From an uncultured Oscillospiraceae bacterium (GTDB taxonomy: Bacteria; Bacillota; Clostridia; Oscillospirales; Ruminococcaceae), in assembly GCA_934462925.1 (NCBI GenBank), contig CAKSIT010000006.1, forward strand, positions 1-64,000: a stretch of 64,000 nucleotides of DNA. The letters run 5' to 3'. Below are positions 12,357-55,404 of this stretch, in pieces. A model generated the notes under the pieces. The model was not told the DNA's origin, searched no databases, and saw only the letters and a program-made list of their open reading frames with translations. Positions within the stretch are counted from its first letter, which is position 1. Every line of letters starts with the position of its first letter. Both the position numbers and the translations under genes were made by a program.

Positions 12357-12383
12357 AAATCCCGCCAAAAAGTGGCGGGATTC
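12357..12383 (-). terminator. Terminator hairpin, left duplicate flanking repeat A1
   Basis: Stem AATCCCGCC / GGCGGGATT with a run of T residues on the minus strand. This 27-bp block is repeated exactly at 12573-12599, on the other side of element A1. Before the insertion it would have been the terminator of the small peptide gene at 12603-12671. Confidence 0.8.
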
Positions 12384-12572
12384 CAGCTTGTTGAAAAAGT
12401 CCATTTTGCCCGCGTATGCGGGCTTTGAAATAACTTTTTTGCCTCGGGTTTCCCGAGGCAAAAAACACTTCTATCCGCACAAGTGTGTACGCGACGCTGC
12501 GCTTACGCAACCGTGCGCGCAGCGCGGATGTCCCGTCGGAAAACCCCCGTATGGGGGTTTTTCGACGGTCTC
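12384..12572 (+). mobile_element. MITE-like repeat family A, copy A1 (189 bp)
   Basis: Begins CAGCTTGTTGAAAAAG and ends TTTTTCGACGGTCTC; the second terminus read in reverse (GAGACCGTCGAAAAA) resembles the first, giving imperfect 15-bp terminal inverted repeats. Inside lie hairpins CCCGCGTATGCGGG, TTGCCTCGGG / CCCGAGGCAA, a variable GC-rich one, and ACCCCCGTATGGGGGT. It is flanked by exact 27-bp direct repeats (12357-12383, 12573-12599), each a whole terminator hairpin. Its fourth hairpin region (about 12485-12525) has diverged from copies A2 and A3. It carries no gene. Confidence 0.85.
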
Positions 12573-12599
12573 AAATCCCGCCAAAAAGTGGCGGGATTC
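12573..12599 (-). terminator. Terminator hairpin, right duplicate flanking repeat A1
   Basis: Exact copy of the 27-bp hairpin block at 12357-12383. It lies 4 bp after the stop codon of the small peptide gene on the minus strand, but now runs into element A1 rather than the original T-rich DNA, so its termination strength may be reduced. Confidence 0.75.
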
Positions 12600-25131: not shown

Positions 25132-28100
25132 TTATTTTGCCCTACGGCAGAAAAACCACACACTCGAGCCTGCAAGGCTTCCCGCAAGCTCCTTAAAGCC
25201 CGTAATCGCGCTTAAGCCCTCGCACAGGGCAAGCATCTGGGCGGCAAGCTCGCGCACGTCCTGCGGCTGCGCGGGGCGGCGCACGTAAAACTCCAGCGTG
25301 TCAACGTCAAGCAGGGCGGGTATAGCTCCGTATTTCTCCCGCCAGAGCGCCAGCACGCGGCTTACGTCCCGCTCGTCAACGCCGCCAAACACGCCGAACC
25401 TGCAAAGAACCCGCGCGGCGTCGTCAGCCGCCAGTTTGCAGGCAAGCATGGGGCATACCCCGCCGCCCGCGTTTCTTATCGTCACAAATTTTGTGAGCGG
25501 CACGCCCTGCGGGATATCGCCCGCCGCTCGCGCCTTTTCAAGCATGGCGCGCAGCCTTTCGTCATATGCGCCCTTGTCTGCCTTTGGCGGGCGCTTAAGC
25601 AAAGCCTCGGGCAGCTCGGGCGAGGCCTTTATAAGCAGCGGTGCGAACCCACGCGCGCCCGCCGCTTCAAACGCGCGGGAATACGCCTGCAAAAACGCCC
25701 TGTCCCCGTGCATTGTGACAAAGTGCGAGCATTCGCAGCCAAGCGCGCTGCTTGTAAGCGCGGCAAGGTTGTTTAGCGTTGTATGCTCGGGTATGCCGAG
25801 CGGCATTCGCACGGGCAGGTAATCGCCGCCCTGCGGCAAAAATAGCGTCATGTCTATCGCAATGCCCTCGTTAACGACTACCGCGGGCGCTTCGCCCAGC
25901 AGCTTTTCCAGCCGCTCCGCCGTTTTCGGGCGGGGAACGCGCGGCAGCTCCTCCCGCACGAGCAGCTGTACTGCGTCGCCTATGCCGCGCCCCTGCGGCA
26001 GCTGCGCTATCACAAGCTGCTGCGAAGCGTTCTCTAGCGCCTCCTTAAGCTGCTCCGAGCGCTTATGCCCGTCGCAGTCGCAGCATACCAGCGGGAAAAG
26101 AGTCCTGCCCGAACCGCGCGCTGCCTCTTTTATGGCGGCGAACATCTGCGCCGCAGTCTTAATCGGCAGCGCGCCGAGATATATGCAGGGCAGCCCGAGC
26201 CGTTTGTCGATGTCGTTCGAGGGGAAATAAAGCGACATAGCCGCGGGCAGCTGCGAGAACAGCAGCTCGCTTACGCGCTGCGTGCGTATAAGAGCGTCCG
26301 CCTTGCGGCTTACCGAGTAGCAGCCGCTTTCGCAGGGGATATACACGCGCGTTACGAGCGCGGGGTCGCGGCAGATTATTAAAGGCCGCACGCCGTAGCG
26401 CTCCGCAGCGCGCTGCGCCGCCTGCAAAATTTCCTGCGGTACAGGCTCGTCGTCCCGCGTAAACGGGGCTGTGATTTTCCTTATCGCTTCGCCGAACGTC
26501 GCCGCGGGGTAGTCCGAGGCGCACACGCGCGCGGTGCAGGCTTCGTCCGCAAACGCGCTCAGGCTGCCGACTGCCGCCTCCGTGCCGTCTATTATCAGCA
26601 GGGGAGCGCTGCCGTCCGCGCGGGCCTGCTCGGCTGCGCGCGCGTATTCTGCGGCAGCCTCGTCGCCGCCCGCGACGCTGCTGCACATATAGCCCAGCAG
26701 GTTCTCAGCCGCTTCCTCAAAAAACACCTGCCGCGAAAACTCGTTTGTGCGCAGGTCGAAGCGCATAAACGCGCGCGTTATTTTTGAAGCGAGCCTTGTA
26801 TAGTAGTCCTCGTCAAACGGCATAAAAAGGTACGCTTCGTCCTGAAACTCCGCGCTTTCGCAGCGCTCCTTGCCGAAGTATTCCTCCGCGCACCTGTCAA
26901 CGTCGCTCGGGAAGCCGTCGTCGCCGAAATAATAGTACGAGTCCGCGAAATCGCGGTATTCGTCCGCAATAAGCGAGTCGAAAAGCGCGCCGTCGTAGCG
27001 CTTTCGGATAAAATCGCGCAGGTCGGTGAGCGTGCCGTCCTTAACGCCGCGCACCACCTCGGGGAAGCGCTCCGTCAGCTCCTCGGAGCAGACGTCGCTT
27101 GCAATACACCAGCGCAGAAAAATCGCTATGTGGCTAAGCGCGTTCTTTTCGTCAACGGCAAGCCCCTTGCTGCGTATTGAAGCCAGATGCTCGCAGTCCC
27201 TGTCGAGCATTGCGTCCCAGAAGCCGCTCTGTGCGGGCGCGTAATCGCGCGGCACGGCGCTCGGGCGGTTTATGTCCACCACCCTGTTGAACGCAGCCCC
27301 GCCGAGCCGCTTCAGAAGCTCCTCCGCGCTGTTGTCAACCTTGTATATCATTTCCTCGCGGTAAATGGGAACTACCTCGAAAAACTCGACGGTTTCGCCG
27401 CTCGGCAGGGCGCAGGTGCGCGCGTCTTCGGGCAGCCAGTCGGGGTCTAAAAGCATTGTTGCGGACAGCCGCGTGTTCTCCGCAAAGGTTTCGCGGTTGT
27501 CTACGGTATGGCAGCGCCCCAGCCACGAGTCGCAGCTTACGGGCAGCCGCCCGAGATTTTTAAGCACGATAAGCGGCCAGTTCCATTCCTCTGCGGACTC
27601 GCCCACCTTCCACTCGGGCGGCAGGCGCATTATAAGCTCTATGCGCGCGGGCTGGTCGGCGTACTGCTCGGGAACGTCCATAGCGCGCGAGCCCATGCCG
27701 AACGTTACAAGCGTATAGTACCTGCGCTTTTCCGTTGGCGGAATAACGCAGATATCAACGTAAATGTCGGGTGCGCTCAGCTCCCTGTAAACCGACGGGA
27801 ACTCGCCGAAATGCGCCTTTATATGGTCCTCGAGCGCGTCCGCGTCGTCGTCCTCATAAAAGTCGCCGCCGCCGTCCTCGTCGCACTCCTCGTCCCCGAA
27901 AAGCTCGTCCTCTATCGTCTGCATATAAGCGTCGCAGTCTTCAAGGCAGCCCTCGGGCGGGTTGAGTATCATGCAGCGCGAAAAGCACGTTCTCGCGCGC
28001 TCGAGAATGTTCAGGCGCAGGTCGCTGTCGTTGTCGCATTCCTCGTCGTCTGCGGCGTTCACCAGCGCGTAGCCTAAGCAGTACTGCCAGCGCCAGCTGC

Positions 28101-28305
28101 TCTCCTGCCGCGCGCGCAGCCCCTCAAGCACTGCGATAGCCTTTTTGTACTCGCCCGTGCTGTTGTACGCGGTAGCAAGCTGCACTAAAATATCGTCGTC
28201 TACCTCTGCCTCGGGCAGCGCAAGCACGGTGCTGATTATCCGCTCATACTCGCCGTTTTCGCCCCATTCTGCTATGCGCTTAAGCAATTCGTCCTTGTTC
28301 ATCAA
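25132..28305 (-). CDS. Large multidomain protein: TPR, SUFU-like and DUF4253-like regions
   Basis: A 1057-residue soluble protein. Residues about 1-115 look like TPR-type helical repeats (YERIISTVLALPEAE, ATAYNSTGEYKKAIAVLEGL). A very acidic linker follows (about 135-160). Residues about 165-345 fit a suppressor-of-fused (SUFU) domain (YYTLVTFGMGSRAMDVP, then IELIMRLPPEWK, and LLDPDW). The rest is helical, and the C-terminus (YGAIPALLDVDTLEFYVRRP) resembles DUF4253. SUFU-like domains in bacteria are often found with immunity or toxin-related loci. There is no signal peptide. It stands alone, with no toxin recognisable beside it. The start could be the second Met (MNKDELL). Confidence 0.75.
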   Translation of the reverse strand: MMNKDELLKRIAEWGENGEYERIISTVLALPEAEVDDDILVQLATAYNSTGEYKKAIAVLEGLRARQESSWRWQYCLGYALVNAADDEECDNDSDLRLNILERARTCFSRCMILNPPEGCLEDCDAYMQTIEDELFGDEECDEDGGGDFYEDDDADALEDHIKAHFGEFPSVYRELSAPDIYVDICVIPPTEKRRYYTLVTFGMGSRAMDVPEQYADQPARIELIMRLPPEWKVGESAEEWNWPLIVLKNLGRLPVSCDSWLGRCHTVDNRETFAENTRLSATMLLDPDWLPEDARTCALPSGETVEFFEVVPIYREEMIYKVDNSAEELLKRLGGAAFNRVVDINRPSAVPRDYAPAQSGFWDAMLDRDCEHLASIRSKGLAVDEKNALSHIAIFLRWCIASDVCSEELTERFPEVVRGVKDGTLTDLRDFIRKRYDGALFDSLIADEYRDFADSYYYFGDDGFPSDVDRCAEEYFGKERCESAEFQDEAYLFMPFDEDYYTRLASKITRAFMRFDLRTNEFSRQVFFEEAAENLLGYMCSSVAGGDEAAAEYARAAEQARADGSAPLLIIDGTEAAVGSLSAFADEACTARVCASDYPAATFGEAIRKITAPFTRDDEPVPQEILQAAQRAAERYGVRPLIICRDPALVTRVYIPCESGCYSVSRKADALIRTQRVSELLFSQLPAAMSLYFPSNDIDKRLGLPCIYLGALPIKTAAQMFAAIKEAARGSGRTLFPLVCCDCDGHKRSEQLKEALENASQQLVIAQLPQGRGIGDAVQLLVREELPRVPRPKTAERLEKLLGEAPAVVVNEGIAIDMTLFLPQGGDYLPVRMPLGIPEHTTLNNLAALTSSALGCECSHFVTMHGDRAFLQAYSRAFEAAGARGFAPLLIKASPELPEALLKRPPKADKGAYDERLRAMLEKARAAGDIPQGVPLTKFVTIRNAGGGVCPMLACKLAADDAARVLCRFGVFGGVDERDVSRVLALWREKYGAIPALLDVDTLEFYVRRPAQPQDVRELAAQMLALCEGLSAITGFKELAGSLAGSSVWFFCRRAK

Positions 28306-33384: not shown

Positions 33385-33412
33385 TTCAGACTGTCGAAAA
33401 AAGTTGCTTTTA
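33385..33412. repeat. Possible solo end of repeat family A
   Basis: CAGACTGTCGAAAAAAG matches the right terminus of family A (CAGACCGTCGAAAAA, read inward) but no element body follows before the next copy. It may be a remnant of an older insertion beside element A2. Confidence 0.4.
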
Positions 33413-33418
33413 CAGGCA

Positions 33419-33448
33419 AAGCCCGCAGACGAGCAGCCTGCGGGCTTT
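33419..33448. repeat. Host hairpin, left duplicate flanking repeat A2
   Basis: A 30-bp block with the stem GCCCGCAG / CTGCGGGC, repeated exactly at 33639-33668 on the other side of element A2. It is a terminator-like hairpin for the minus-strand gene at 33694-35802. Confidence 0.8.
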
Positions 33449-33638
33449 CAGCCTGTTGAAAAAGTCCATTTTGCCCGCGTATGCGGGCTTTGAAATAACT
33501 TTTTTGCCTCGGGTTTCCCGAGGCAAAAAACACTTCTATCCGCACAAGTGTGCGGTTTGGCGGCAAGCCGTCAAACCGTGCGCGCAGTGCGGATGTTTCG
33601 GCGGAAAACCCCCGTATGGGGGTTTTTCGACGGTCTCG
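33449..33638 (+). mobile_element. MITE-like repeat family A, copy A2 (190 bp)
   Basis: Begins CAGCCTGTTGAAAAAG and ends TTTTTCGACGGTCTCG. It contains the hairpins CCCGCGTATGCGGG, TTTGCCTCGGG / CCCGAGGCAAA, CCGCACAAGTGTGCGG, GGTTTGGCGG / CCGTCAAACC and CCCCCGTATGGGGG. It is flanked by exact 30-bp direct repeats that are themselves a hairpin. It encodes no transposase. Confidence 0.85.
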
Positions 33639-33668
33639 AAGCCCGCAGACGAGCAGCCTGCGGGCTTT
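33639..33668 (-). terminator. Host hairpin, right duplicate flanking repeat A2
   Basis: Exact copy of 33419-33448, 25 bp after the stop of the YcdB-like gene. On the minus strand the T-run is short, so it is a modest terminator. Confidence 0.6.
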
Positions 33669-36411: not shown

Positions 36412-36460
36412 CAGTCTGTTGATAAAGGCGCAGCCGCACGCGTAAGGCGAGCGGCGTTCT
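36412..36460. repeat. Remnant related to repeat families A and D
   Basis: The first bases, CAGTCTGTTGA, look like a family A terminus. The following GATAAAGGCGCAGCC...GCGTAAGGC...GCGGCG resembles the left part of family D at 43606-43655. It sits directly against a hairpin, as other family A copies do. A composite or decayed element is likely. Confidence 0.4.
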
Positions 36461-44441: not shown

Positions 44442-45091
44442 ACGGCTTGGATTCGGAGCTATGTGCAATGCTCTCGCAGAGCATTCTGCGCGATATACCC
44501 GATATGCCGAAGCACAGGTTTTCGCGCAAATACCGCAGGGAAATGCGGCTGCTGCTAGCGCCTAGGGTAAATCCCAGAAAGGCGCTTAAATACGCGTTTG
44601 TCGCCCTGCTGCTGGCGTGCGCGGGGGCTGCTACCGCCTGCACGGTAACGCGCTGCATTGCGGGGCTTGGCGTGTTCCGCTCGGAGCGCTACATGGGCAT
44701 AAACGGCTATACGGCGCAGGGCGAGAGTCCCGACAGGATACTTGAATATTACGAGCCTGCCGAGCTGCCCGAGGGCTTTGCTTTAAGCAGGGTGATTACG
44801 CCCGAATATTTGCTGCCGCTTAGCAGAAAGTGCGAATATACCGACGGAAAAGAGCGCTTTACATTTAAGCAGGCGGTAAAGAGCTGCTATTTTTACGGCT
44901 CTGTTACAGAAGCCGTCGGCAGCGTTAGCGAGGGCGTGATAAACGGACGGAGCGCGCTGTGGTTCTATGACGAAAAAGGGCTGTGCTTTGTGCTTGACGG
45001 CGGGGACTACATATTTGAGATACGCGGCGGCGTGACCGCAGAGCAGGCGGAGCGAATGCTCTTAACGCTTAAAATAAGGGAGGAGCAGTAA
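44438..45091 (+). CDS. Putative anti-sigma factor, DUF4367-like membrane protein
   Basis: A 217-residue protein with a basic cytosolic N-terminus (about 50 residues), one TM helix (about 51-69, ALKYAFVALLLACAGAATA) and an extracytoplasmic domain. The latter has the DUF4367-type run PAELPEGFALSRV and a C-terminal GGDYIFEIRGGVTAEQAERML. Coupling to the sigma gene supports an anti-sigma role. The next gene starts within its stop codon (TAATG). Confidence 0.75.
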   Translation: MNGLDSELCAMLSQSILRDIPDMPKHRFSRKYRREMRLLLAPRVNPRKALKYAFVALLLACAGAATACTVTRCIAGLGVFRSERYMGINGYTAQGESPDRILEYYEPAELPEGFALSRVITPEYLLPLSRKCEYTDGKERFTFKQAVKSCYFYGSVTEAVGSVSEGVINGRSALWFYDEKGLCFVLDGGDYIFEIRGGVTAEQAERMLLTLKIREEQ

Positions 45092-45720
45092 TGAAAAAGA
45101 AGATACTTATAGCGCTTGGCGCTACAGCCTGTTGAAAAAGTCCATTTTGCCCGCGTATGCGGGCTTTGAAATAACTTTTTTGCCTCGGGCTTCCCGAGGC
45201 AAAAAACACTTCTATCCGCACAAGTGTGCGGTTTGGCGGCAAGCCGTCAAACCGTGCGCGCAGTGCGGATGCCCCGTCGGGAAACCCCCGTATGGGGGTT
45301 TTTCGACGGTCTGTAGCGCTTGGCGCTATTCTGCTGGGGGCTGTCGTGTGGCTTGGTGGATATATGATATATATCTACAACACGGGGCTTTGTCAGATAA
45401 GCAAGAGCTATACGGAGTCCAGCGACGAGTATATCGAATCGTGGACTGTCATATACTCTCCGCTTTTCGGCGAGCTTATTTTGCCAAAAACCGAGGAACG
45501 GATATTTGAGTTTAACGACAGAAACCGCGCCGTGATATTGGACATTGCAGAAAACTGCGGCAAACCCTATCACATAGAAACCGACATGACCTTTGAGGAC
45601 GGCAGGACGATAGTCCGCTGGTACGGTACGTACACCGACGAAAGCGGCGGCGCGCAGACGTACGACAAGGCGGTGGTTTACGACTTCATTCTGAAGAACC
45701 ACGAAAACGGTACAATATAG
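45091..45720 (+). pseudogene. Small membrane-protein gene broken by repeat A3
   Basis: The gene starts MKKKILIALGA at 45091 and meets a stop 3 codons into the inserted element (MKKKILIALGATAC). After the element the frame resumes as ILLGAVVWLGGYMIYIY. Removing the 189-bp element and one 15-bp duplicate (204 bp) restores an unbroken frame of 141 codons: an N-terminal TM helix, then a soluble part (SYTESSDEYIESWTVIYSPLFG, and NENGTI-like end HENGTI). It was the third gene of the sigma/anti-sigma operon. A protein could still be made from a GTG inside the element, giving about 30 foreign residues, but no ribosome site supports this. Confidence 0.85.
45110..45328 (+). mobile_element. MITE-like repeat family A, copy A3 with 15-bp target duplication
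   Basis: The element is 45125-45313 (189 bp), CAGCCTGTTGAAAAAG to TTTTTCGACGGTCTG, flanked by the exact direct repeat TAGCGCTTGGCGCTA (45110-45124 and 45314-45328). That target is itself an inverted repeat (TAGCGC / GCGCTA). Because it lies in a coding sequence whose frame is restored on removal, it proves this family inserts and duplicates palindromic targets. Confidence 0.92.
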
Positions 45721-45752: not shown

Positions 45753-45822
45753 CAGTCTGTCTGCATTTTGCCCGCATATGCAGGCTTTGAATCGCTTTTT
45801 GCTTCGGTTTTACGACGGTTTG
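45753..45822 (+). mobile_element. Repeat family A, internally deleted copy A5 (70 bp)
   Basis: Begins CAGTCTGTCTGCATTTTGCCC and ends TTTTACGACGGTTTG, matching both family ends, with the CCCGCATATGCAGG hairpin left and the middle 120 bp gone. It lies directly between a hairpin and the ydjH-like stop codon; no duplicate of the hairpin is seen. Confidence 0.65.
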
Positions 45823-47647: not shown

Positions 47648-47696
47648 CTGTTACTCCTTTCACAAAAAAATGGGGACAGCGCTTATAAATATTAAA

Positions 47697-47845
47697 ATTA
47701 TTTTTTGCCTCGGGTTTCCCGAGGCAAAAAAACTTTTATCCGTACAAGTGTACGGTTTGGCGGTAAGCCGTCAAACCGTGCGCGCTGTGCGGATGTATCG
47801 GCGGAAACCCCCGCATGGGGTTTTCGCCGTTTCCTCACGCCGTCC
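47697..47845 (+). mobile_element. Repeat family A, 5'-truncated copy A4
   Basis: Starts inside the family at TTTTTTGCCTCGGG and runs to the GGGGTTTTCGCCG region. The left terminus and first hairpin are missing. The hairpin CCGTACAAGTGTACGG here differs from CCGCACAAGTGTGCGG in A2 and A3 by two paired changes (C to T, G to A), which keeps the stem. It lies between ydjI and ydjG. Confidence 0.75.
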
Positions 47846-47856
47846 CCGAAAAGCCG

Positions 47857-53195: not shown

Positions 53196-55214
53196 TCACC
53201 TTTCGTTTATCGTTATCTCGTACACGTCCCTAAGCGCTACCGTGTAAACCTCGCCGTAAATGCACACTCCGTTTTCGGGCAGCTCCTGCCGCGGCGAGGC
53301 ATAAAGCGCAAGCTGCGCGCAATTTTCGGGCGCGGCGCGCTTGCCGTAATAAAGCACGATATCTCCCGCGCGCATACCGCCCGCCCTGTCCGCGGTAATC
53401 GTAACGCTGCCTGCGGTCATGCTGCAAACCTGCGCGTCCGTGCGCGCAGCGCCCTGCGCAAGGTTCAGCGCGGCGGTTTCCTGCGGGACGTACACGCGCT
53501 CCACCTCGACAATCTGCGACAGCTCCTCAAGCGCCGCCGCTCCCTGCGCGCCTATATCCGCGCCCGCCACAAAAGCCACGCGGTGTATCCCGCTGCGGTC
53601 GAAGCGCTCTGCAATTTGCCTTGCAAGGCGCTCGCTGCCGCTGCCCGAAACCAGTACCGCGGCGTTGTCGCCTATGCACACAATCGCAGCGCCGCTTGCA
53701 CCGTCGCTTACAAACTCCGCCCTGCTGCGCCATTCGCGCGCGACAAGGCACATAAGCATTGAAAACGTAACGAGCGCCCCGCACGCCGTAAACTTCACGC
53801 GCGGTATATGTTCGGGGCGGAACGCAGCCCACGCAGCAAGCACCGCGCACAAAAGCGCAGGCAGCGCGGCGAGTCTGTAATCCATAGCGAACCACAGCGT
53901 GCGCATTTTCCCGAAGAACTCCGCAAAGCTTGATATAAGCCCCAGAAGCCGTCCGAGAACGTCCGCCGGCAGCGGTAGTCCCGTAACAAAATACATCATA
54001 CCCGCGCCCATAGCGCACGCGAAAATCGGCGCAATCAGCAGCGTAGTAAATGCTCCCGCAGCGGAAACGCCGCCGAAGCACGCTATCCCCACGGGGCTTG
54101 TGCATATCACAGCGCCCAAAGAAGCCGCAGCGGGCTTGACGAGCGGCCGCAGCCGCTGCATTCCCTCGGGCAGCGCCCGCTCAATCGGCTCTGCAAGCCG
54201 CACGCCCACGAACCCTGCGCCAAAAACGCCAAGCACAGACATTTGCAGTCCCGCGTCAAGCGCGGCTGCGGGATTTGCCGCGCATATCACAGTCGCCGCA
54301 ACGCAAAGCGAGTTCAGCAGAACCGTTTTCCTGCCGAAAAGCTCCCCGACGTAGCACAGCGCAAGCATTACCGCCGAGCGTATAACGGAAACCTGCCCGC
54401 CGAAAAGCAGCGCCGCAAGCGGCACGGAAAGCAGGGCGAGCCACGTGCGCAAAAGCCTGCTTCTGTCGGGCAAAAGCAGCAGCAAAAACGCGGCGAACAC
54501 CGCAAAATGCGTCCCTGAAACCGCGCTGTAATGCGAAATGCCCGCAATGCGCATAAACTCGCTCTGCTTAAGCGAAAGCTCTGACGTGTCGCCTATGAGC
54601 AGCGCCTTTGCAAGCGCGCGTTGTTCGCCGTTCAGCTCGCGTTCAAGCGCCGCGGCGAGCATCCGCCTTATCGCCGCAAGCAGCGTGCGCGGCGTTACTG
54701 GGCGCTCTACCCCGCGTATCTCAGCGACTTCTCCCTCGAGCATTATGCCCTGCGCATGGGAGCGCGCGGTATATTGCTCGTCGAGCGCGCTAAGCTCCAC
54801 CAACGCGCGCACAGTCGCGCCAACCTCGCCGCTTTTCGCAGAAGTGAGCCTTGCGCGAACGTCCCTGCCGTCAAGCCGCACTAGCGCCGTAAACGCCTGC
54901 CAGTCGCCTGCGGTATCGGTAATTTCTGTGATTACGTACTGCGTTTCAACGGCCGTACCCGCGTAACTTTGCACGGGCTTTGCGTAAAGCTGCACCCAGC
55001 CGCTCATGCAAAGCACGCCTGCAAGCGCGCCCGCAGCGCATACTGCGGCGCGTTTTCTGCGGAATGCAAGCAGCGCCAGCACGCCCGCCGCAGCCACGGC
55101 AATAACGGCTCTCGCTATGTCGCCGACGTAATACGCAGCATACAGCCCTGCCGCAAAAAATGGCGCAAACATCACGGGCGGCAGCCGCAGAAGCGCGCTT
55201 GCTTCATCTCTCAT
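53196..55214 (-). CDS. comEC: ComEC/Rec2-like DNA-uptake channel protein, degenerate nuclease domain
   Basis: A 672-residue membrane protein. After N-terminal TM helices and an OB-fold-like DUF4131 region comes the Competence domain (about 230-500), with ISHYSAVSGTHFAVFAAFLLLLLPDRSRLL where most ComECs read SGLHIS, then ALDAGLQMSVLGVFG. The C-terminal part (from about 510) has the metallo-beta-lactamase position (IVCIGDNAAVLVSGSGSER) but no HxHxDH, so it cannot hold metal as usual. The same gap occurs in some ComEC families. No good ribosome site precedes the ATG; a hairpin does (55224-55250). Confidence 0.83.
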   Translation of the reverse strand: MRDEASALLRLPPVMFAPFFAAGLYAAYYVGDIARAVIAVAAAGVLALLAFRRKRAAVCAAGALAGVLCMSGWVQLYAKPVQSYAGTAVETQYVITEITDTAGDWQAFTALVRLDGRDVRARLTSAKSGEVGATVRALVELSALDEQYTARSHAQGIMLEGEVAEIRGVERPVTPRTLLAAIRRMLAAALERELNGEQRALAKALLIGDTSELSLKQSEFMRIAGISHYSAVSGTHFAVFAAFLLLLLPDRSRLLRTWLALLSVPLAALLFGGQVSVIRSAVMLALCYVGELFGRKTVLLNSLCVAATVICAANPAAALDAGLQMSVLGVFGAGFVGVRLAEPIERALPEGMQRLRPLVKPAAASLGAVICTSPVGIACFGGVSAAGAFTTLLIAPIFACAMGAGMMYFVTGLPLPADVLGRLLGLISSFAEFFGKMRTLWFAMDYRLAALPALLCAVLAAWAAFRPEHIPRVKFTACGALVTFSMLMCLVAREWRSRAEFVSDGASGAAIVCIGDNAAVLVSGSGSERLARQIAERFDRSGIHRVAFVAGADIGAQGAAALEELSQIVEVERVYVPQETAALNLAQGAARTDAQVCSMTAGSVTITADRAGGMRAGDIVLYYGKRAAPENCAQLALYASPRQELPENGVCIYGEVYTVALRDVYEITINER

Positions 55215-55223
55215 AAATCCCGA

Positions 55224-55250
55224 AAAGCGGCCCTTTTACAGGACCGCTCT
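55224..55250 (-). terminator. Hairpin upstream of comEC, possible terminator after ybaB
   Basis: Minus strand stem AGAGCGGTCC / GGGCCGCTTTT (one mismatch), then TTCGGG. It abuts the right end of a diverged family A copy, again showing that element beside a hairpin. Confidence 0.5.
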
Positions 55251-55404
55251 GAACCGTCGAAAAACCCACATACGGGGGTTTTCCGCCGAAGCATCTCAGC
55301 TGCGCGCACTCATTGTCGGATAACCGACAATTCGTACACTTGCTGAGATAAAAGTGTTTTTTGCCTCGGGAAGCCCAAGGCAAAAAAGTTATTTCAACAG
55401 ACTG
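55247..55404 (-). mobile_element. Repeat family A, diverged inverted copy A6
   Basis: Read on the minus strand it starts CAGTCTGTTGAAATAAC and ends TTTTTCGACGGTTCAGAG. The TTTTGCCTTGGG / CCCGAGGCAAA hairpin and CCCCCGTATGTGGG are retained, the first internal hairpin (CCCGCGTATGCGGG) is deleted, and the GC-rich middle hairpin is replaced by TTGTCGGTTATCCGACAA. It lies between ybaB and comEC. Confidence 0.65.

Follow-up and report, generated by a model that had tools for sequence, protein, structure and literature searches.

A miniature element with IS1182-like ends lies between two copies of its target hairpin in an uncultured Oscillospiraceae bacterium

Hairpin targeting is already known for the IS1182 family of insertion sequences (ISs). 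In staphylococci, IS1272 and its composite transposon TnSha1 target hairpins, often terminators, and remove them (PMC5678879, PMC4923244). In its Discussion and a figure, the 2017 paper on this process also names as a possible pathway b the duplication of the whole stem-loop through attack at its 5' feet, with no example in the available text (PMC5678879). ISCbo5 of Clostridium botulinum group III, another IS1182 element, has 17 chromosomal copies; all of their sites but one are hairpin-forming inverted repeats at gene ends, and the available text speaks of a hairpin surrounding the element (PMC3098183). Here we describe family A, a group of small elements in a 64,000-nucleotide stretch of DNA from an uncultured Oscillospiraceae bacterium (GCA_934462925.1, contig CAKSIT010000006.1, positions 1 to 64,000; hereafter the window), together with full-length ISs that have similar ends. 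As judged from the available text, IS1272 and TnSha1 share with family A their IS1182 affiliation and a hairpin target of no fixed sequence and of variable size (21-85 bp, PMC5678879), but they delete or replace the hairpin, in whole or in part, without duplication, whereas family A duplicates it. ISCbo5 shares the affiliation and the terminator-like target; it differs in that the main text, as far as available, does not state the hairpin to be a target duplication, although it names a supplementary table of direct repeats (PMC3098183).

The window holds three intact copies of family A, named A1, A2 and A3, with pairwise identities of 89-97% (Table 1). A first reading of this DNA, made from its letters only (hereafter the sequence-only reading), had placed them between exact direct repeats of 27, 30 and 15 bp and had taken the repeated blocks for hairpins, and both statements proved sound. 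The repeat is exact at A1 (AAATCCCGCCAAAAAGTGGCGGGATTC) and at A3 (TAGCGCTTGGCGCTA); that of A2 can be read as 30 exact bp or as 31 bp with one substitution, and is better taken as 31 bp because this reading is centred on the hairpin axis. In all three intact copies the target duplication is a whole hairpin, centred on its axis. Equally good stems occurred in 0.04% (A1), 0.02% (A2) and 0.58% (A3) of 5000 random window segments of equal length, and folding of the duplicated targets as single-stranded DNA gave z = -6.8, -4.9 and -2.8, respectively. Chance is rejected as the source of the hairpin repeats by this rarity of the stems, besides the exact repeats of 15-30 bp that abut the element. Replacement of the IS1272 type, with the hairpin removed and nothing duplicated, was not found either, as a hairpin stands on both sides of A1, A2 and A3.

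Table 1. Family A copies, their duplicated targets and the interrupted gene (positions in the window)
Feature	Position	Strand	Remarks
A1 target duplication, left copy	12357-12383		27 bp; 10-bp stem, 5-nt loop, plus 1 bp on each side
A1, intact MITE-like element	12384-12572	+	189 bp
A1 target duplication, right copy	12573-12599		identical 27 bp
A2 target duplication, left copy	33418-33448		31 bp (30 bp exact); 11-bp stem, 9-nt loop
A2, intact element	33449-33637	+	189 bp
A2 target duplication, right copy	33638-33668		differs from the left copy at the first base only (a/g)
Small hypothetical-protein gene interrupted by A3	45091-45720	+	uninterrupted relatives P0174, P0175
A3 target duplication, left copy	45110-45124		15 bp; 6-bp stem, 3-nt loop
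A3, intact element	45125-45313	+	189 bp; imperfect terminal inverted repeats CAGCCTGTTGAAAAAG / CAGACCGTCGAAAAAC
A3 target duplication, right copy	45314-45328		identical 15 bp
A5, relic	45753-45822	+	70 bp
A8, copy eroded at both ends	47692-47829	+	87% over A3 positions 42-184
A4, shorter diverged variant	55250-55404	-	without element positions about 12-41

The insertion of A3 can be compared with uninterrupted alleles. The sequence-only reading held that the frame of the interrupted gene returns once the element and one repeat are taken out; joined in this way, the gene indeed reads MKKKILIALGAILLG... through to the stop at 45720. Two relatives, each from another assembly, carry no insert: P0174 matches the part downstream of A3 (141 aa) at 98% identity, P0175 has 88% identity, and their N-termini, MKKKILIALGAILLG and MKKKILIALGALLLG, are the same or nearly so. 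These uninterrupted relatives make A3 a real insertion with target duplication, at a site that had one palindrome before and has two now. Among the three intact copies, an uninterrupted allele is known for A3 alone.

The ends of the elements connect family A with IS1182. A1, A2 and A3 begin with CAGCYTGTTGAAAAAG and finish with CGACGGTCTS, which together form an imperfect inverted repeat. Compared by eye, the left end of A3 is identical at 19/20 positions to that of L006 and at 18/20 to that of L010 (L numbers denote the records of relatives), and its right end at 18/19 positions to that of L010 and at 15/19 to that of L006. ISs with ends like those of family A encode IS1182-family transposases: in a scan of P0053 (from L006), L008, L028 and L056, the scores against NF033551 were 400-490 bits (cut-off 270). 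The IS1182-like affinity suggested in the sequence-only reading has thus found support in full-length elements with closely similar ends. A search of solved structures with the transposase profile gave 0 hits. With 189 bp, no transposase gene, inverted ends, three intact copies plus relics and target duplications, family A has the features of a miniature inverted-repeat transposable element (MITE), and it is best read as a non-autonomous IS1182-family element that would be mobilised in trans by an IS1182-type transposase. Bacterial MITEs of about 190 bp are, like family A, short, with terminal inverted repeats and strong secondary structure (PMC10969869, available text). The single-strand folding of A3 is very strong (several hairpins, z = -9.6); one hairpin lies just inside each end, as it does in the full-length ISs.

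The full-length relatives were taken from viral contigs, phages and plasmids, their sources including streptococcal phages, Enterococcus, Rhizobium, Sutcliffiella and Cytobacillus plasmids, and viral contigs. IS edges were set by the CAG...CTG ends (GAG for CAG in L015), and the flanks were read by script. Whole-hairpin direct repeats of 19-36 bp flank 18 of the 24 ISs with both ends readable, one of the 18 being L023, a deleted copy of 697 bp; neither a majority without repeats nor a set of short, fixed-length repeats was seen among these relatives. Ten more ISs, counted at one end only because the other was cut off or not recognisable (L022, L025, L060, L061, L062, L034, L046, L052, L055, L065), all have a hairpin score of at least 15 at that end. 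Overall, a hairpin that scores at least 20 and whose foot is within 2 nt of the edge occurs at 49 of 58 ends vs 0.97% of 20000 random positions, and a score of at least 15 at 58/58 ends vs 5.5% of random positions. Left out of these counts were L013 (from the site of L012), L018 (on the contig of L046), repeat entries of contigs that were already in the set (L040-L045, L047, L049-L051, L053, L054, L058) and records without a recognisable IS edge (L057, L063, L069); L036 stands in for several S. suis phage records.

Five of the 24 ISs (L006, L010, L011, L014, L015) carry an unlike hairpin at each edge. Such pairs would be expected if IS copies had recombined, or from a join made in assembly; L006 spans the start of its record, and L010, L011 and L014 come from contigs with metagenome-style names. 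The L006 element, an IS1182 copy of Thermocaproicibacter melissae (L006 1-4526 with L007), spans the start of a plasmid record beside type III-A CRISPR genes, and the two unlike hairpins at its edges are perfect; it may be a recombination product or an assembly join.

Together, the 18 ISs and the three MITE copies provide 21 duplications of 15-36 bp. Twenty of these are centred exactly on the hairpin axis, and that of L028 becomes so under a 25-bp reading with one extra nucleotide. In 17/21 blocks the outermost bases pair with each other; the other 4/21 have one unpaired base at each end. A null based on the paired fraction was set aside in favour of a per-copy test, because 15% of random segments reached its lowest value, which came from reading L028 off centre. 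The proposal that the duplicated length tracks palindrome size is borne out; the spread of lengths rules out short duplications of fixed length, and the length seems to depend on DNA shape instead of a constant span. No 10.5-bp phasing of the lengths was detected, a comparison of little power (n = 21). Terminator-like hairpins make up 17/21, with an A-run on the left in 16 and a T-run on the right in 9. Read in the orientation of the element, 8/21 have an A-run only and 1/21 a T-run only, which hints at a preferred orientation of the element with respect to the terminator.

We consider it likely that family A is a non-autonomous IS1182 element whose ends are joined, by a transposase working in trans, to both 5' feet of a palindrome in hairpin or cruciform form. 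The enzyme, a DDE transposase of IS1182 type, would carry both element ends to this structure, in many cases a terminator; each 3' end of the element would be joined to one of the palindrome's two 5' feet, one on each strand; and gap repair would leave a complete hairpin of 15-36 bp, centred on its axis, on each side. Because the joining points would be the feet, the stagger would equal the stem-loop, and since the two feet are adjacent at a four-way junction whatever the length of the stem, the freely varying duplication length would be explained. This mechanism corresponds to pathway b, which is offered beside the replacement by IS1272 (PMC5678879, available text). The observations that it takes up are the duplication, its identity with the hairpin, its centring, the like behaviour of most full-length relatives and the uninterrupted A3 allele; the extrusion of the target when cut and the mobilisation in trans are steps that we infer. 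The sequence-only reading had likewise suggested recognition or cutting at the feet of a hairpin or cruciform. The part that stands is that the blocks end near the feet; they do not always end at the last possible pair, and the cutting of an extruded structure would be a further, inferred step.

Several observations weigh against this proposal. In 12/21 duplications (11/21 by eye if L028 is read as 25 bp) the stem can be extended beyond the block by 1-7 pairs; as these are mostly A:T pairs of terminators, the edge of the block falls close to the foot of the strong stem, short of the outermost pair that could form. An extruded structure and a palindrome read as duplex look the same at the level of sequence. 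Six of the 24 ISs with both ends readable lack a duplication, among them L026 with weak hairpins only (16.0 and 16.5), and exact-match searches for the empty sites of L056 and L009 found nothing. Within the window, a 29-bp hairpin (score 28.5) adjoins the left edge of A5 with no second copy at the right, A4 has a hairpin scoring 19 at its right edge and a weak one (score 12) at its left, so that one edge only is marked, and an end-like sequence at 33387-33402 has no strong hairpin (score 13.5) and no recognisable element following it. As the sequence-only reading had noted, no IS1182-like transposase was found in the window (40 transposases as tblastn queries, best E 0.04), so the mobilising IS is not seen beside the MITE. 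An exact 25-nt pattern returned 0 matches to any further copy of the MITE in the genome-contig and viral-contig collections, and the whole element had no match among plasmids and only one chance match of 26 bp among phages.

The alternatives concern chiefly the form in which the palindrome is met. It is rather unlikely, in our judgement, that the palindrome is read as duplex, with a dimer or tetramer of the transposase binding both arms as a symmetric site and cutting with a long stagger but without extrusion. Palindromes are also symmetric duplex sites, the sequence data show no extrusion, and the predicted fold of the transposase is that of an ordinary DDE transposase; however, the duplicated stems have many sequences and span 15-36 bp with no visible helical phasing (n = 21), whereas a rigid reader of duplex would be expected to favour some spacings. 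Quite unlikely, too, is an encounter with the hairpin as single-stranded DNA, for instance in the lagging-strand template or at terminators, in which case replication or repair would supply the second copy in place of paired strand transfer at a four-way junction. The terminator-like character of 17/21 hairpins, with their A-runs and T-runs, would suit such an encounter, but the like behaviour of the two ends, and a duplication symmetric about the axis, are what two coupled strand transfers on two strands would be expected to give. That the repeats are not target duplications at all, the element being flanked by pre-existing tandem hairpins or the hairpin having been copied by gene conversion, is very improbable: the five ISs with two unlike hairpins speak for it, but the uninterrupted relatives P0174 and P0175 hold one palindrome's worth of codons at that place and so contradict it for A3, and an exact tandem hairpin with the IS in its middle would be required at each of the 18 IS sites.

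Whole-hairpin duplication also has a phylogenetic side. In a tree of 40 transposases, all 17 hairpin duplicators included (L023 was not in the tree) fall in one clade of 28 rows with support of 95/90; its remaining 11 rows are the five ISs that carry unlike hairpins, together with six rows that have one readable or weak side. Of the 12 rows outside the clade, the six with resolved flanks show no whole-hairpin duplication (those without are L030, L033, L039, L059, L066 and L067). All five outside rows that were scanned (L024, L029, L032, L033, L068) are IS1182 by NCBIfam. Direct repeats of 4-5 bp (ACCCG, ACGCG, GGCG, TGCC; by eye) flank L029, L031, L032 and L024, three of which are on alphaproteobacterial plasmids and one on a viral contig, and the target mode therefore seems to differ within one IS family. 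Two more distant elements sit within palindromes. L068, an IS1182 IS on a Peptoclostridium plasmid (1805-1840, 3519-3560), lies inside a terminator hairpin, and its direct repeat of 9 bp, GCTTTCGGC, is the tip of this hairpin and centred on it, an arrangement found in nature that resembles the loop-duplication pathway put forward for IS1272. L038, an IS1182-like IS (598-630, 2103-2135), occupies the loop of a palindrome whose arms measure about 21 bp, and has no direct repeat; a similar palindrome is nearby. L033, L038, L039 and L068 are on long branches, which makes their placement in the tree unsure. The chances seem to us evenly balanced that paired strand transfer to both 5' feet of an extruded cruciform is common to the whole clade, with the duplication measured by secondary structure, and that sister lineages attack other points of the same structure (the 3' feet in IS1272, with replacement as the result; near the loop in L068, with duplication of a 9-bp tip), as natural variants in the cutting of four-way junctions by a DDE transposase.

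Membership of family A in the window exceeds the three intact copies, with A4, A5 and A8 in addition. The flanks of A8 (window 47670-47850), GGGGACAGCG and CGCCGTCCCC, may be the arms of one hairpin with the element in between. A further end-like sequence at 36412-36427 has a strong terminator-like hairpin (score 28.5) at most 3 nt from its edge, and no recognisable element follows. Outside the window, L002 holds a small element (1324-1483) bounded by CAGGCTGCGGAAAAG / GACTTTTTCAACAGCCTG; it may be a MITE from another lineage whose ends are similar, and hairpin duplication was not seen in it by eye. Matches in L001 and L003 look like chance matches inside genes, and that in L005 likewise looks like a chance match. 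The end pattern of family A was found in 0/57 genomes of the phylum of L004, the one distant match of the window's ComEC-like protein among genome contigs, and PF13751 in 0/3 entries in which it was looked for.

Among described systems outside those already compared, ISs that target repetitive extragenic palindromic (REP) sequences, such as ISPsy8, also insert into palindromes likely to form hairpins; unlike family A, they have a fixed insertion point in the REP, at the axis or elsewhere, and direct repeats of 2-6 bp or none (PMC1525189, where IS1182 is not named in the available text). For an IS1182 element, 4-bp direct repeats are tabulated for two copies (PMC3196728, available text). The terms IS1182 and hairpin have 0 occurrences in a MITE review (PMC10969869), which under those words contains no IS1182-derived MITE or hairpin duplication, and the available text of PMC2828477, PMC3875467 and PMC12540322 holds nothing that bears on a rule of hairpin duplication. 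No account of a whole hairpin as the duplicated target, or of such a rule across a clade, was found in the open-licence literature searched, which is partial and excludes supplements; curators may know of it. In ISfinder, the direct repeats of IS1182 reportedly range from 0 to 60 bp, and if this is right, curators have already seen long, variable repeats. Within the literature covered, whole-hairpin duplication as a clade-wide rule appears to be new; the MITE was not found in the collections searched.

Two other proteins of the window deserve a mention. One of 1057 aa (25135-28305) combines SUFU, DUF7832 and DUF4253 domains. The ComEC-like protein (53199-55214) has three relatives, P0001-P0003, one at 94% and two at 71-73%, with all others listed at 59% or less; so few close relatives suggest that the host lineage is thinly sampled.

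The length of the target duplication is normally near constant for a given transposase. A duplication of 15-36 bp that follows the hairpin makes structure recognition by a DDE transposase readable from sequence, and testable by changes to the stem. Annotators can also use it as a rule to locate the ends of IS1182 elements in the hairpin-duplicating clade and of their MITEs. For the host, a duplicated terminator leaves one for each neighbouring gene, which may be a way to insert with little harm.
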